This document shows positions 27,997 to 63,044 of a stretch of 64,000 nt of DNA, one piece after another (position 1 is the stretch's first letter; each line of letters starts with the position of its first letter). The stretch lies in the NCBI RefSeq assembly GCF_030687715.1, contig NZ_CP117445.1:2648501-2712500 (forward strand), given 5' to 3'. The translations under genes were made by a program, and so were the position numbers. Below the pieces are notes generated by a model, which searched no databases, was not told where the DNA came from, and saw only the letters and a program-made list of their open reading frames with translations. The DNA comes from Pseudomonas sp. FP2196 (lineage in GTDB: Bacteria > Pseudomonadota > Gammaproteobacteria > Pseudomonadales > Pseudomonadaceae).

Positions 27997-28359
27997 CTAC
28001 CCGGCGACATCAACCCTATCCAAAGCCCGATTCACCGCCAACTCCCCAAGCATCACCACCTGTGCAATGCCCAGCAAAGTCTTGCGAATCGACCCATCCA
28101 CATGACCGGCAACATCACCCAGCATGACACTGGCCGAGGCCAACGATTCGCAGGCATTCGCCAGCAACGATTCAACGTCAGTCTCCGGATTGACCGAAAA
28201 CATCATGCTGGGTTTATACGGCGCAGCCATGATCGCCGCCGCAGGTTTTAGGTAGTGGTCGAGCGCGCGTTCTGCCGCGTCGTGGAATTTCTTGGAATCG
28301 GATGATTCGTAAGGGGAGGCCGGGTCTGTTTGCGGCGGGTTTGGCGTTACTTTGCACAT
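27997..28359 (-). CDS. DUF6124 family protein, copy A
   Basis: 120-residue soluble protein of DUF6124, a Pseudomonas family of unknown function. It starts MCKVTPNPPQTDPASPYESS and shares SSDSKKFH, AAERALDHYLKPAAAI and LGIAQVVMLGELAVNRALD with the paralogue at 62338-62700. Both genes follow the same upstream sequence element, which here is interrupted by a composite transposon. Expression of this copy may therefore depend on transposon or residual promoters. Function unknown. Confidence 0.85.
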   Translation of the reverse strand: MCKVTPNPPQTDPASPYESSDSKKFHDAAERALDHYLKPAAAIMAAPYKPSMMFSVNPETDVESLLANACESLASASVMLGDVAGHVDGSIRKTLLGIAQVVMLGELAVNRALDRVDVAG

Positions 28360-28556
28360 TTCTTCTTTTTCCTGTTGTGGGGCCGCCGCTCCGAGCTACT
28401 AAACAGGGGGTGGCAGCTGTGCGCAGGTTAGTAGACCGGGGAAAAGAAGAAAGCCGGCGCGCCCGAGGGCGCCCTACGCACAGCCGCCATTAAGTGCAGG
28501 TATGCAAATACCTGTCTGAGCGACGCTTGTGCACTTTCATTTACCTCGGGCTACTA
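28360..28556 (-). ncRNA. Structured upstream element of DUF6124 copy A, 3' part (cut off by the transposon)
   Basis: Seen: 16-bp stem P1 between 28473-28488 and 28412-28427 (two G-U pairs). Inside it, hairpin GCGCC-CTCG-GGCGC (28459-28472), CCGG...CCGG, and the unpaired strand at 28428-28434 (CUACUAA in RNA sense). Downstream, UUUAGUAG (28396-28403) lies 37 bases before the start codon and is complementary to that strand. The half-hairpin at 28547-28556 is the left part of CGGG-UUUAGUAG-CCCG; its right part is at 31016-31023 beyond the insertion. The paralogous frame is not open here (in-frame TAG), so this is not coding. Structured RNA is inferred from covariation with 62701-63044. Confidence 0.65.
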
Positions 28557-29161
28557 GGCTCTGCACGAAATCATCTGAAACTCATTTGAACCCAGCAAAC
28601 GCCGGGAGTCAGTAAAGTCCGCGCCCATCAACGGCAGGAGCCCACGATGGCCAAACGGTACGAACTCCCCGACGCAGCCTGGGATTTGGTTGCAGACATC
28701 TTCAGTGAACACCGCCGTAACGGACGCCCACGGGCAGATGATCGGCTGATGCTCAATGGCGTGCTCTGGGTACTCTGTTCGGGTGCTGCTTGGCGCGACA
28801 TGCCCGAGCGTTTCGGCCCATGGTCGACGGTCTATCAGCGCTTTCGTGGCTGGCGCAATCGCGGGACGTTCGAGCAAGAGCTATGACTTCGAAGCGTTGC
28901 GTCGCTACTGCGACCGCTATCGGATGCAGCCGATAATTCTGCTACGCACGATGAAGCGCAAACTCAAGCCGGGATTACCGAGACTGTTTGATCGCCCCAA
29001 GTACCGGCAGCGCAACATCATCGAGCGCATGTTCGACTGGCTGGTTGAAAGAGAGGCGGCGCATCGTTACGCGCTTCGACAACCTCGCAAAAAGTTATGC
29101 GGCGATGGTCTCACTGGCTTGTGCCATGGGGTGTTTGAGACAGTACTTTTCGTACAGAGCC
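28557..29161 (+). mobile_element. IS5/IS427-type element, internally deleted, left copy
   Basis: Terminal inverted repeats GGCTCTGCACGAAA / TTTTCGTACAGAGCC. The transposase frame starts MAKRYELPDAAWDLVADIF (28647) with the typical N-terminal DUF4096 domain, then jumps at GTFEQ to the C-terminal EALRRYCDRYRM part and RNIIERMFDWL. The central catalytic region with its DDE aspartates is gone, so it cannot transpose by itself. The same junction is present in the right copy. Confidence 0.85.
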
Positions 29162-29195
29162 TAGGTAGGGTCTGCTGATACCCTTGTCAGGAGGC

Positions 29196-29494
29196 CCCGC
29201 CCTTTAGTCGATGTCTATGAATTCGGTGACAACTGGGAACTGCGAATTAAAGTCGAGAAAACGTTGCATGCGATTATTTTCCCGCAAGGGCCGTGTTACA
29301 TCGATGGAGCCAATGCTCGCCCGCCGGAGGACATCGGTGGCGCGCCGGGGAATGAAGATCTTCTGTCAGCGTTGTCGGATCCGAACCACCTTGAGCACGA
29401 GGCAATGTCGGAGTGGTATGGGGATGATGGGTTTGATCCGACGGCGTTTGACTGCGAGTGGGTCAATCAATGGACGAAGCAAGCGAAGGTCTGA
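29196..29494 (+). pseudogene. pRiA4b ORF-3-like gene, N-terminally truncated
   Basis: Reads VDVYEFGDNWELRIKVEK, then GPCYIDGANARPPEDIGGAPG and EWYGDDGFDPTAF, the C-terminal core of the plasmid pRiA4b ORF-3 family. Intact members are about 180 residues; here about 95 remain and no start codon is in place because the left IS copy cut it off. Confidence 0.75.
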
Positions 29495-29720
29495 TCAGCA
29501 AGAGGGTGTTGGGCTGACGCTTACGATGAAAATGCGAGGGCCAATGGCCCTCACGAATTGCCGAGGTTGTTGGCCTCGACTTCACTATGAATTGACCGAA
29601 TCAATTAAAATCGGAAGCGTACTAAAGGCTACCCAAGGGTTGTTCTTTACTAGGTCAGCGTGCGTTGAGTTGATACTCCTCAACGTATCGCAGACCTGCT
29701 TTAAAGTAACTAACCAATAA

Positions 29721-30026
29721 TCAATGTCCGTTTGATTTGGATGGATTTTCAAGGGACAGTTCAACGTCCCATTGATTCAACTCCGCGGCTACATTATCCT
29801 CTTCCTCATACGTCTCATGATTTTGACCGGAATTATCGGGAGAACAAATTGAATTGATGCTACTGAAGCTGAACTCCCCTTCTGGAGTGGTTACAGAAGT
29901 GTCCCCTATGCGAATGATTGTCCCCGAGTGACATTCTAAGTCGCCATTGTTGAGCCGCCTCCAAAAACGCACAGCTCCGTCAACCCCAATTTGGCTAAGC
30001 TTGGATCGTGCTGTTTGATTATCCAT
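29721..30026 (-). CDS. Hypothetical protein, 101 residues
   Basis: Complete small frame inside the composite insertion, more AT-rich than its surroundings. Contains VRFWRRLNNGDLECHSGTI and FSFSSINSICSP; no known motif, no signal peptide. Acidic C-terminal half (ETYEEEDNVAAELNQWD). Could be a passenger gene, immunity-type protein or remnant; unknown. Confidence 0.4.
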   Translation of the reverse strand: MDNQTARSKLSQIGVDGAVRFWRRLNNGDLECHSGTIIRIGDTSVTTPEGEFSFSSINSICSPDNSGQNHETYEEEDNVAAELNQWDVELSLENPSKSNGH

Positions 30027-30158
30027 GATGAATTTTCCAGTACGGTGAGTGAAGGTTCCACTTTACGGGCGTAGTCTGTTGATTGAACCTGTTAAACCTG
30101 ACAGGTTTTTAGAACTTTTCGAAATTGGAAGGTTATTCGGAAGCACATATAACCAGTT

Positions 30159-30367
30159 TCAGAACACAGGCTTTAATATTCTGCCAGCCCACTCAGCAAC
30201 CTGCCTAACAACGGCGTTTCCGGCACTGAAAGCCTCTGCAAGTTTGCCCGCATCCAGTCCGAGGCAAAGCCCATCATTTTCAGACTTTCGCTGCCGCTCA
30301 ACCCTCTGATCTTTATCTGTTCCAGCAGGTCGATCGAGCCATGCTCGACGAAGATTGGTCGATTCAT
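30159..30367 (-). pseudogene. Possible C-terminal remnant of a C5 cytosine methyltransferase
   Basis: Two overlapping minus-strand frames carry IRGLSGSESLKMMGFASD and, after a frameshift, AGKLAEAFSAGNAVVRQVAEW. Together these resemble the closing part of C5 DNA methyltransferases (MGF...D, then GNAV...VA). Everything upstream is missing. Low confidence, from motif resemblance only. Confidence 0.4.
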
Positions 30368-30411
30368 AAAAAACGGAAGCGTACTGCAGACTACACAAAG
30401 GGATTTTGTTA

Positions 30412-31015
30412 GGCGCTGTACGAAATCATCTGAAACTCATTTGAACCCAGCAAACGCCGGGAGTCAGTAAAGTCCGCGTCCATCAACGACAGGAGCCCAC
30501 GATGGCCAAACGGTACGAACTCCCCGACGCAGCCTGGGATTTGGTTGCAGACATCTTCAGTGAACACCGCCTTAACGGACGCCCACGGGCAGATTATCGG
30601 CTGATGGTCAATGGCGTGCTCTGGGTACTCTGTTCGGGTACTGCTTGGCGCGACATGCCCGAGCGTTTCGGCCCATGGTCGACGGTCTATCAGCGCTTTC
30701 GTGGCTGGCGCAATCGCGGGACGTTCGAGCAAGGGCTATGACTCCGAAGCGTTGCGTCGCTACTGCGACCGCTATCGGATGCAGTCGGTAATCCTGCTAC
30801 GCACGATGAAGTGCAAACCCAAGCCGGGATTACCGAGGCTGTTTGATCGCCCCAGGTACCGGCAGCGCAACATCATCGAGCGCATGTTCGGCTTGCTGGT
30901 TAAAGGGGAGCTGTCGCATCGATATGCGCTTCGACAAACTCGTAAAAGTTATGCGGCGATGGTCTCACTGGCTTGGGCCATGCGGTGTTTGAAACAGTAC
31001 TTTTCGTACAGAGCC
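30412..31015 (+). mobile_element. IS5/IS427-type element, internally deleted, right copy
   Basis: 604 bases, same orientation as the left copy. Left end GGCGCTGTACGAAATC, right end TTTTCGTACAGAGCC, preceded by TA at 30410-30411. The transposase starts at 30502 and has the same internal deletion (GTFEQG then YDSEALRRYC), with a few substitutions. The shared junction shows both copies descend from one deleted ancestor. Confidence 0.85.
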
Positions 31016-31163
31016 TAAACCCGATCACTGGGAATCAGTGACGGGAATCAAGTTACCGATGGCTCTCCAGGCGCACAAGCCGGCGGATTCTGGCGTAGTC
31101 GTAGGCAACGACGCAAGGTGTTGTAGCCTTGATGGCGTAACGCGAGGTGACTTTTAAACGCCG
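31016..31163 (-). ncRNA. Structured upstream element of DUF6124 copy A, 5' part
   Basis: Contains the right half of the CGGG hairpin (31020-31023), hairpin TCACTG-GGAAT-CAGTGA (31025-31041), and a block of about 60 bases (31069-31129) nearly identical to 62954-63014 upstream of copy B. Similarity reaches a TTTAAAC at 31153-31159 (63038-63044 in copy B), a possible promoter part. It is separated from its gene by 2.46 kb of transposon. Confidence 0.6.
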
Positions 31164-62337: not shown

Positions 62338-62700
62338 TTACTCCACTGGCACGACGTTATCCAACGCCCGATTCACCGCCAGTTCTCCCAGCATCACCAC
62401 CTGCGCAATCCCTTGCAGGGTCTTGCGAGCCGAGCCGTCCACCAGCCCAATCACATTCCCAAGCATGACCGAAGCCGAGCCCAGTGATTCGCTGGCATTC
62501 ACCAACAATTCCTCAGTCGGGGTTTTCGGGTTTGCGGAAAACATGGTGCTGGTTCTGTAGGGCGTGGCGTTGATCGCGGCGGCGGGTTTCAGGTAGTGGT
62601 CGAGGGCGCGTTCGGCGGCTTCGTGGAATTTCTTCGAATCGGATGATTCGTAGGGGGAGGCTGGATCGGTTTCTGGTGGGTTGGGTGTGACTTTGAACAT
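62338..62700 (-). CDS. DUF6124 family protein, copy B
   Basis: 120-residue protein, MFKVTPNPPETDPASPYESS, highly similar to copy A at 27997. The ATG at 62700 has AGGGAG at a good distance; the open frame upstream (to 62904) is the structured element read as protein and is not kept in copy A. Its upstream element 62701-63044 is uninterrupted, so this is the copy most likely under its native control. Function unknown. Confidence 0.85.
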   Translation of the reverse strand: MFKVTPNPPETDPASPYESSDSKKFHEAAERALDHYLKPAAAINATPYRTSTMFSANPKTPTEELLVNASESLGSASVMLGNVIGLVDGSARKTLQGIAQVVMLGELAVNRALDNVVPVE

Positions 62701-63044
62701 GATGTAACTCCCTTGTGCCTCATAAGTAGGAGCCATCACCGTTTCGCTACCAAACGAGTGGGTGGCGGCCATGCACAGGTTGGTAGACCGGGACACAAGG
62801 AGACCGGCGCGCTCGAAAGCGCCCTGCGCATGACCACCATAAAGTCGTGACGAAAAGCTCCGCCAACTGTGGGGACTGCGCACCTTGTATACACGGGCTA
62901 CCAAACCCGATCACTGCTTTTCAGTGACCAGCTCACGATAGAACCCGCACTCAAGGCGCACAAGCCGGCGGATTCTGGCGTAGTCGTAGGCAATGGCGCA
63001 AGGCGTTGTAGCCTGGGATGACGTAACGATGGATGTCTTTAAAC
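62701..63044 (-). ncRNA. Structured upstream element of DUF6124 copy B (intact)
   Basis: In gene sense, from 5': conserved block (63014-62954), hairpin TCACTG-5-CAGTGA (62911-62927), hairpin CGGG-UUUGGUAG-CCCG (62894-62909), 16-bp stem P1 (62823-62838 with 62764-62779), inside it GCGCU-UUCG-AGCGC (62809-62822) and CCGG...CCGG, the single strand CUACCAA (62780-62786), and the second UUUGGUAG (62747-62754) about 47 bases before the ATG. Versus copy A, P1 has two full compensatory changes and several wobble changes, the tetraloop hairpin has one, and CUACYAA covaries with both UUURGUAG strands. RNA nature is inferred. Confidence 0.7.

Follow-up and report, generated by a model that had tools for sequence, protein, structure and literature searches.

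Chromosomal C4 antisense RNAs with matched targets ahead of DUF6124 genes in a Pseudomonas genome

The window analysed here is a stretch of 64,000 nucleotides from the chromosome of Pseudomonas sp. FP2196, and it holds two DUF6124 genes that share an upstream element. This locus raises the question of what kind of RNA the element is, what it recognizes, and how it might act on the gene behind it. A preliminary description saw in it a structured, covarying leader RNA, possibly switching between two states, and knew of no RNA family with this layout. The structured, covarying element is present in the sequence upstream of both genes as described, but the family is a known one, given that the Rfam models C4 (RF01695) and c4-a1b1 both match.

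The element in the window and its parts

We refer to the module of the DUF6124 gene at 27997 as copy A and to that of the gene at 62338 as copy B; both lie on the minus strand. Searching the whole window with Rfam at curated cut-offs returned only three matches, two to C4 and one to c4-a1b1. The C4 antisense RNA model RF01695 (cut-off 45) scored 83.8 bits in copy B at 62758-62844 (-), over model positions 1-87, and 81.3 bits in copy A at 28406-28494 (-), over the full model. The target family c4-a1b1 (RF03163, cut-off 46.7) scored 49.5 bits at 62890-62941 (-) in copy B, which is the intact copy. No riboswitch aptamer from Rfam reached its cut-off in the window, where the gathering score was attained by C4 and c4-a1b1 only. 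A new RNA class or riboswitch, also considered as a candidate, was ruled out by the C4 and c4-a1b1 matches.

What was described as one element is three parts, namely an a1-b1 upstream leader, the C4 RNA proper, and an a2-b2 ribosome-binding region, arranged in the order a1-b1-C4-a2-b2-gene. The features of copy B are:

62338-62700, minus strand: DUF6124 target gene, 120 aa (PF19619, 59.2 bits, cut-off 27)
62708-62719, minus strand: b2, GGCACAAGGGAG, includes the Shine-Dalgarno sequence (duplex with own b', -15.8 kcal/mol)
62747-62754, minus strand: a2, TTTGGTAG, target of a' (duplex with own a', -9.3 kcal/mol)
62758-62844, minus strand: C4 antisense RNA (RF01695, full model)
62762-62838, minus strand: putative mature 77-nt C4, with the GG cut placed as annotated for phage P1
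62780-62786, minus strand: a' segment, CTACCAA (RF01695 alignment)
62792-62803, minus strand: b' hairpin loop, TCTCCTTGTGTC, anti-Shine-Dalgarno (RF01695 alignment and duplex energy)
62881-62888, minus strand: b1, ACAAGGTG (duplex with own b', -11.2 kcal/mol)
62890-62941, minus strand: c4-a1b1 element (RF03163)
62898-62905, minus strand: a1, TTTGGTAG, within the c4-a1b1 element
62972-63001, minus strand: conserved upstream block of TTGCGC, 18 nt and CAGAAT, a candidate promoter
63039-63044, minus strand: GTTTAA box

The motifs noticed earlier can be named accordingly from the C4 layout. The central CUACYAA is the a' segment of C4, the two UUURGUAG segments are its targets a1 and a2, the stem labelled P1 is the C4 outer stem, and the inner hairpin, whose sequences in both copies were given correctly, is the C4 tetraloop hairpin. 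Aligned by eye, the outer stem shows the two full compensatory changes (T-A to C-G and G-C to A-T) and the five one-sided, pair-keeping changes that had been listed, although we counted 17 pairs where the stem had been given as 16 bp. It was also correctly seen that CUACYAA can pair with either flanking UUURGUAG and that the R/Y change is common to all three sites; copy B combines CTACCAA with TTTGGTAG, and copy A combines CTACTAA with TTTAGTAG, so the changes go together. A second recognition pair, absent from the preliminary description, is formed by b' (62792-62803) with b2 (62708-62719) and b1 (62881-62888). Over a2 and b2, the C4-by-target energies were -20.3 kcal/mol for A on A, -13.4 for A on B, -15.8 for B on A, and -25.1 for B on B.

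Copy A has the same parts, divided by an insertion:

27997-28359, minus strand: DUF6124 gene, 120 aa, intact open frame (PF19619, 77.8 bits)
28360-28373, minus strand: b2, with the Shine-Dalgarno sequence (duplex with own b', -13.5 kcal/mol)
28396-28403, minus strand: a2, TTTAGTAG (duplex with own a', -6.8 kcal/mol)
28406-28494, minus strand: C4 antisense RNA (RF01695)
28551-28556, minus strand: 3' part of the interrupted a1 (from the sequence)
28557-31015, no strand assigned: insertion of ~2.5 kb that splits a1 (from the sequence)
31016-31163, minus strand: detached upstream half with the 5' part of a1, leader and upstream block (by DNA similarity)

The insertion has TA on either side and, judged by eye, is made up of two near-identical insertion-sequence-like stretches and intervening DNA; Pfam gave no match for the four ORFs within it. 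Positions 31017-31142 of the detached half are 81% identical to window positions 62903-63028. The C4, a2, b2, and DUF6124 frame of copy A are all intact, and the insertion cuts the leader and upstream block off from C4 and the gene. A second interrupted module lies elsewhere in the chromosome (G000:C1:3852050-3853630, minus strand), with a C4 of 20.6 bits that has a broken 5' part and its nearest a1-b1 1.4 kb upstream.

C4 loci and their own targets across the chromosome

The host genome, a single contig of 6.24 Mb at completeness 100, carries 41 C4 matches above the cut-off and two weak ones, 39 DUF6124 matches, and 45 c4-a1b1 matches at E <= 1, of which 19 are above the cut-off. We analysed 42 C4 loci, namely the 41 above the cut-off and the weak 3852050- with its broken 5' part, leaving out the weakest match (16.8 bits). 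A DUF6124 gene lies within 1 kb downstream of 34 of these loci, and a1-b1 lies 26-64 nt upstream in 40. The suggestion that the element would recur upstream of other DUF6124 genes is thereby borne out for 34 of the 39 DUF6124 matches. The other five have no paired C4, and a crude search with crude start-codon calls found nothing convincing as a trans C4 for them. The remaining eight C4 loci lead into DUF3077 genes (two), a Bro-N antirepressor-type gene (one), a methyltransferase gene (one), and ORFs without a Pfam match (four). Two host loci, G000:C1 760386-760850 and 847824-848227, have a1-b1 and DUF6124 with no C4 match between them and look like C4 loss; the crude search gave no convincing trans C4 for these either.

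The covariation first noticed between two copies holds in a larger alignment. Among the 41 distinct C4 sequences of the host chromosome, the outer stem was paired in 95.3% of cells, with double-sided changes at 10 of 17 pairs. In the slid control, where partners were shifted by 1-3 bases, 26-48% of cells were paired and 3-7 pairs had double-sided changes; because these controls fall far lower, the outer-stem covariation exceeds chance. Two other genomes gave 94.9% (10/17) and 94.6% (12/17).

To ask how closely each RNA fits its own locus, every C4 was paired with the targets flanking it and with the targets of the remaining loci of that genome, and 20000 permutations were run. Under neutral drift, own pairs would be expected to be no better than foreign pairs. 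At the 42 host loci, the comparison of own against foreign pairs was -9.97 vs -6.76 kcal/mol for a2 (z -11.3), -10.82 vs -7.67 for a1 (z -10.8), -14.49 vs -9.63 for b2 (z -14.2), and -12.99 vs -11.31 for b1 (z -5.1), each with 0 of 20000 permutations. Eight controls, using other parts of C4 or swapped regions, had z values no lower than -2.0 and no higher than +1.2; 488 of 20000 permutations came as low as the most negative of them, in which hairpin 1 was set against the b2 region. The own-target preference was repeated in the genome G010 (35 loci), with 0/20000 for all four targets. In the genome G009 (38 loci), 0/20000 was obtained for a2, b2, and b1, while a1 was without specificity (z -0.7).

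Uninterrupted runs of at least seven Watson-Crick pairs tell the same targets apart. For a2, such runs were found in 34/42 own pairs of the host vs 5.3% of 1722 foreign pairs, in 22/38 vs 9.1% in G009 (where 16 of the 38 C4s have no 7-pair run to their own a2), and in 33/35 vs 6.6% in G010. For b2 in the host, the counts were 29/42 own vs 3.5% of 1722 foreign pairs. Runs of this length to both a2 and b2 were observed in 24/42 own pairs vs 1/1722 foreign pairs in the host, 24/35 vs 5/1190 in G010, and 18/38 vs 1/1406 in G009; at a looser threshold of 6, the host gave 31 own and 28 foreign pairs. The a' 7-mer takes 24 different forms among the 42 host loci, and in 37 of them the b2 duplex overlaps positions -11 to -6 relative to the start codon. 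When targets were ranked by a2+b2, the own target was best for 31/42 C4s, while the own C4 was best for just 14/42 targets; by a1+b1, these counts were 12/42 and 6/42. Cross-talk among modules is therefore possible. Two host C4s stand out as having no good cis target, 238468- (rank 42) and 5631212+ (rank 36). The first (G000:C1:238468-238553, minus strand) is followed by a methyltransferase gene, and its own a2+b2 pairing ranks 42 of 42, which we read as a C4 that lost its cis target or acts elsewhere.

CCAGAATC, from the conserved upstream block, occurs in 20/42 host loci at -117 to -149; a consensus scan of the window found no sigma-70-type site. GTTTAA is found upstream of 24/42 host C4 loci (shuffles gave a mean of 1.6 and a maximum of 6), and its spacing to CCAGAAT is 65-66 nt in 16 of 17 cases. 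It is at that place in 0/35 G010 loci, though 19 of those have CCAGAAT, and it could be a transcription signal particular to the lineage. Just 5' of C4, a hairpin with an energy of -6 kcal/mol or lower and no long T run is present in 23/41 host cases (shuffled 19%), 15/35 in G010 (17%), and 6/38 in G009 (15%). No terminator was found by the window scan, which included the copy B leader; an intrinsic terminator between a1-b1 and C4, which would yield an IsrK-like short RNA, may exist.

Mode of action in the light of known C4 systems

The closest known system is the C4 of phages P1 and P7 (RF01695 and RF03163). The P1 record AF234172 annotates, in order, a1, b1, a 77-nt c4, a2, b2, and icd, and when our duplex script was run on it as a control it recovered the annotated a1, b1, and b2, with the best a2 duplex beside the annotated a2. 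P1 C4 is described as trans-acting and as repressing antirepressor synthesis (PMC8546580), and as released by RNase P (PMC5320573). The modules share with it the fold, the 77-nt core, a' and b', the a1-b1-C4-a2-b2-gene order, and the placement of b' on the ribosome-binding region. Unlike the phage case, the host chromosome has 41 copies above the cut-off, and these lead mostly into DUF6124, not icd/ant. A P1-type immI operon has icd and antirepressor genes downstream, while the window copies lead into DUF6124, and Icd showed no similarity to the DUF6124 profile.

Family membership, layout, the co-variation of a' and b' with their own targets, and the ribosome-binding-site overlap can be read from the sequence itself. 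Transcription and co-transcription, processing, trans action, and repression would follow by analogy with P1. On this basis, we consider it very probable that a processed antisense RNA represses translation of its own gene via a2 and b2, while a1-b1 competes for it as a decoy. Each element would be a chromosomal copy of a P1-type C4 circuit, in which a1-b1, C4, and the gene would be carried on one transcript and C4 would take up a compact fold of 77 nt in which an outer stem encloses two hairpins. Should it behave as P1 C4 does, RNase P would excise it; a GG is present at the expected 5' end, which is compatible with such a release. The freed C4 would then place a' on a2 and b' on b2, so that the Shine-Dalgarno sequence of the DUF6124 gene in its own module would be masked and translation blocked. 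The a1-b1 targets farther upstream would compete for the same C4 and may relieve repression; this decoy role is our own suggestion. Some forty such modules are dispersed in the chromosome, with recognition sequences diverged module by module, and most C4s should therefore act mainly on their own gene.

The two alternative states first proposed amount to a leader switch in cis, where a' of the nascent transcript would choose between a1 and a2 of that transcript, without any need for a separate small RNA. One segment with two targets does exist, and a1, a', and a2 are ordered on one strand and co-vary, although co-variation alone cannot separate cis from trans. There is a partial precedent in the IsrK leader of Salmonella Gifsy-1 (RF01394), whose model matches the a1-b1 region at 36.4 bits, below the cut-off of 50, and which is described as partly using alternative cis structures (PMC4825925). 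Such a switch is possible, yet we judge it unlikely and not the best reading, because the closed outer stem encloses a', so that pairing with a1 or a2 would demand either a pseudoknot in cis or an encounter of two molecules (reasoning from the fold), and because the P1 relative is described as trans-acting (PMC8546580) and processed by RNase P (PMC5320573). C4 is also a self-contained covarying domain, and in G009 there are C4s, some of them close together, apparently without a downstream target. IsrK resembles the modules as a leader RNA ahead of an antirepressor operon; it differs in being terminated and, as described, in acting in trans, where it activates translation of both the antirepressor gene and a short ORF (PMC4825925).

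A further reading adds a purpose to repression by a processed C4 and does not contradict it: DUF6124 and its relatives may inhibit growth, with C4 as the antidote RNA of a type I toxin-antitoxin-like pair. The P1 gene in the same position, icd, is annotated as an inhibitor of cell division, and the proteins here are small and numerous, with a ribosome-binding site that an RNA can mask. We consider this rather unlikely. The DUF6124 profile, as noted, showed no similarity to Icd, and some loci have a1-b1 and DUF6124 without a C4 match in between, a state that a strong toxin would hardly tolerate. A defence-library search with four proteins gave no match, and NCBIfam and PADLOC gave none for DUF6124. 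The predicted DUF6124 fold is a helical hairpin with a less certain N-terminal part (pLDDT 79.5, pTM 0.48), and neither PDB nor the viral models gave a fold match at E <= 0.001; by sequence, no PDB relative was found at E <= 1. In PHROGs, DUF6124 had matches at E 0.024-0.086 only.

Distribution, the phage side and meaning

C4 was found in 137/149 sampled genomes of the genus (up to 27 candidates scored per genome) and in 18/274 genomes of the class (up to 15 candidates scored each), where the highest count outside the host was 6. In 36 genus genomes searched more deeply, the number per genome ranged from 0 to 42. DUF6124 was found in 28 of these 36 and in 1/274 class genomes, the host itself, and the counts of C4 and DUF6124 across the 36 had a Spearman correlation of 0.84. 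The tie is not universal, since G009 has 38 C4s and just 2 DUF6124. Many genes behind C4 in that genome encode other small proteins starting with VPDPP; a profile comparison relates these to DUF6124 (hhalign probability 96.9%, E 2e-10). An N-terminal P-[D/N/H]-P-[P/T] motif was observed behind C4 in 35/42 loci of the host, 24/38 of G009, and 24/35 of G010. In other genera, the best b' duplex lay within 15 nt of an ATG in 14/14 C4 loci examined. G009 also has C4 clusters of two or three (C21 16214-16512, C58 321065-321620, C17 111255-112197); some of these appear to have no gene or target behind them and are candidates for trans-acting or decaying RNAs.

We did not find a mobile unit with a clean empty site. 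The SGL gene beside copy B occurs in G011 without a module, where the other flank was absent from the 7.5 kb examined, and the two best modules examined, from G005 and G011, have the module in common with copy B but not its flanks.

Another reading is that chromosomal C4s form an antiviral store, silencing the antirepressor genes of incoming C4-bearing phages, with DUF6124 incidental. P1 C4 represses antirepressor synthesis by description (PMC8546580), and one host C4, at 6006892+, leads into an antirepressor-type gene (phrog_130, E 5.2e-14). Another leads into an ORF type frequent behind C4 in IMG/VR contigs, and the C4-linked DUF3077 protein has a PHROGs relative (phrog_36471, E 7.5e-10); a single DUF3077 protein and a single VPDPP protein, used as tblastn queries against phages, gave no match. 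We nevertheless consider this very unlikely, as the co-variation of the C4s is with targets at their own chromosomal loci, DUF6124 for the most part, and tblastn with the copy A DUF6124 found the protein in 1/50,697 phage records, at the record edge, and 0/72,556 plasmids.

The ORF type just mentioned has 52 aa (start approximately M-T-A-L-I-P-S-K-I-R-A) and repeatedly comes first after C4 in predicted proviruses (such as IMG/VR L256, L260, L274); a relative lies behind C4 once in the host, at G000:C1:339093 (-). Two DNA patterns located 121 distinct sites in IMG/VR stretches, although some of those listed are clearly not C4, and an ORF matching the DUF6124 profile at E <= 0.01 lies behind 26 of the 121. 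Several of these DUF6124-followed sites are near the end of the stretch and may be host flanks of predicted proviruses, not phage genes. DUF6124 modules also recur near the edges of prophage records or proviruses (EU982300.1 61-405; IMG/VR L252, L259, L271), either through boundary-calling or through real insertion beside modules.

The kind of RNA is known, and many C4-like RNAs per genome have already been reported for Acinetobacter baumannii AB5075, where the Group 1 sRNAs comprise 21 C4-like members, 15 of full length, with a variable a' loop and RNA-seq data that point to processing at a GGW motif (PMC5320573). They are alike in being many chromosomal C4-like RNAs in one genome. The portions of that paper available to us describe no downstream gene family or matched own targets, whereas most host C4 copies here carry a co-varying target gene of their own. 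In the literature searched, going by titles and abstracts and with subscription papers mostly outside reach, nothing emerged on C4 ahead of DUF6124, on targets matched module by module, or on this scale in Pseudomonas, and judged by it these three points are new. No paper on DUF6124 emerged. A DUF3077 gene is named solely as an indel site in a furfural-tolerance paper (PMC9630843).

C4 is known as a phage switch, and here there are 41 copies above the cut-off in one bacterial chromosome. We think it probable that a phage immunity RNA was domesticated and amplified to some forty dispersed, largely orthogonal antisense circuits with co-evolved recognition pairs, which would control a Pseudomonas small-protein superfamily comprising DUF6124 and relatives with an N-terminal P-D/N-P-P. 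The set amounts to a natural experiment on the divergence of antisense specificity that follows duplication, and it gives a handle on DUF6124, given that a control RNA suggests how the gene is silenced. The many matched RNA-target pairs on one scaffold could be used for orthogonality tests and, if the domestication reading is true, would represent a natural library of private RNA channels.
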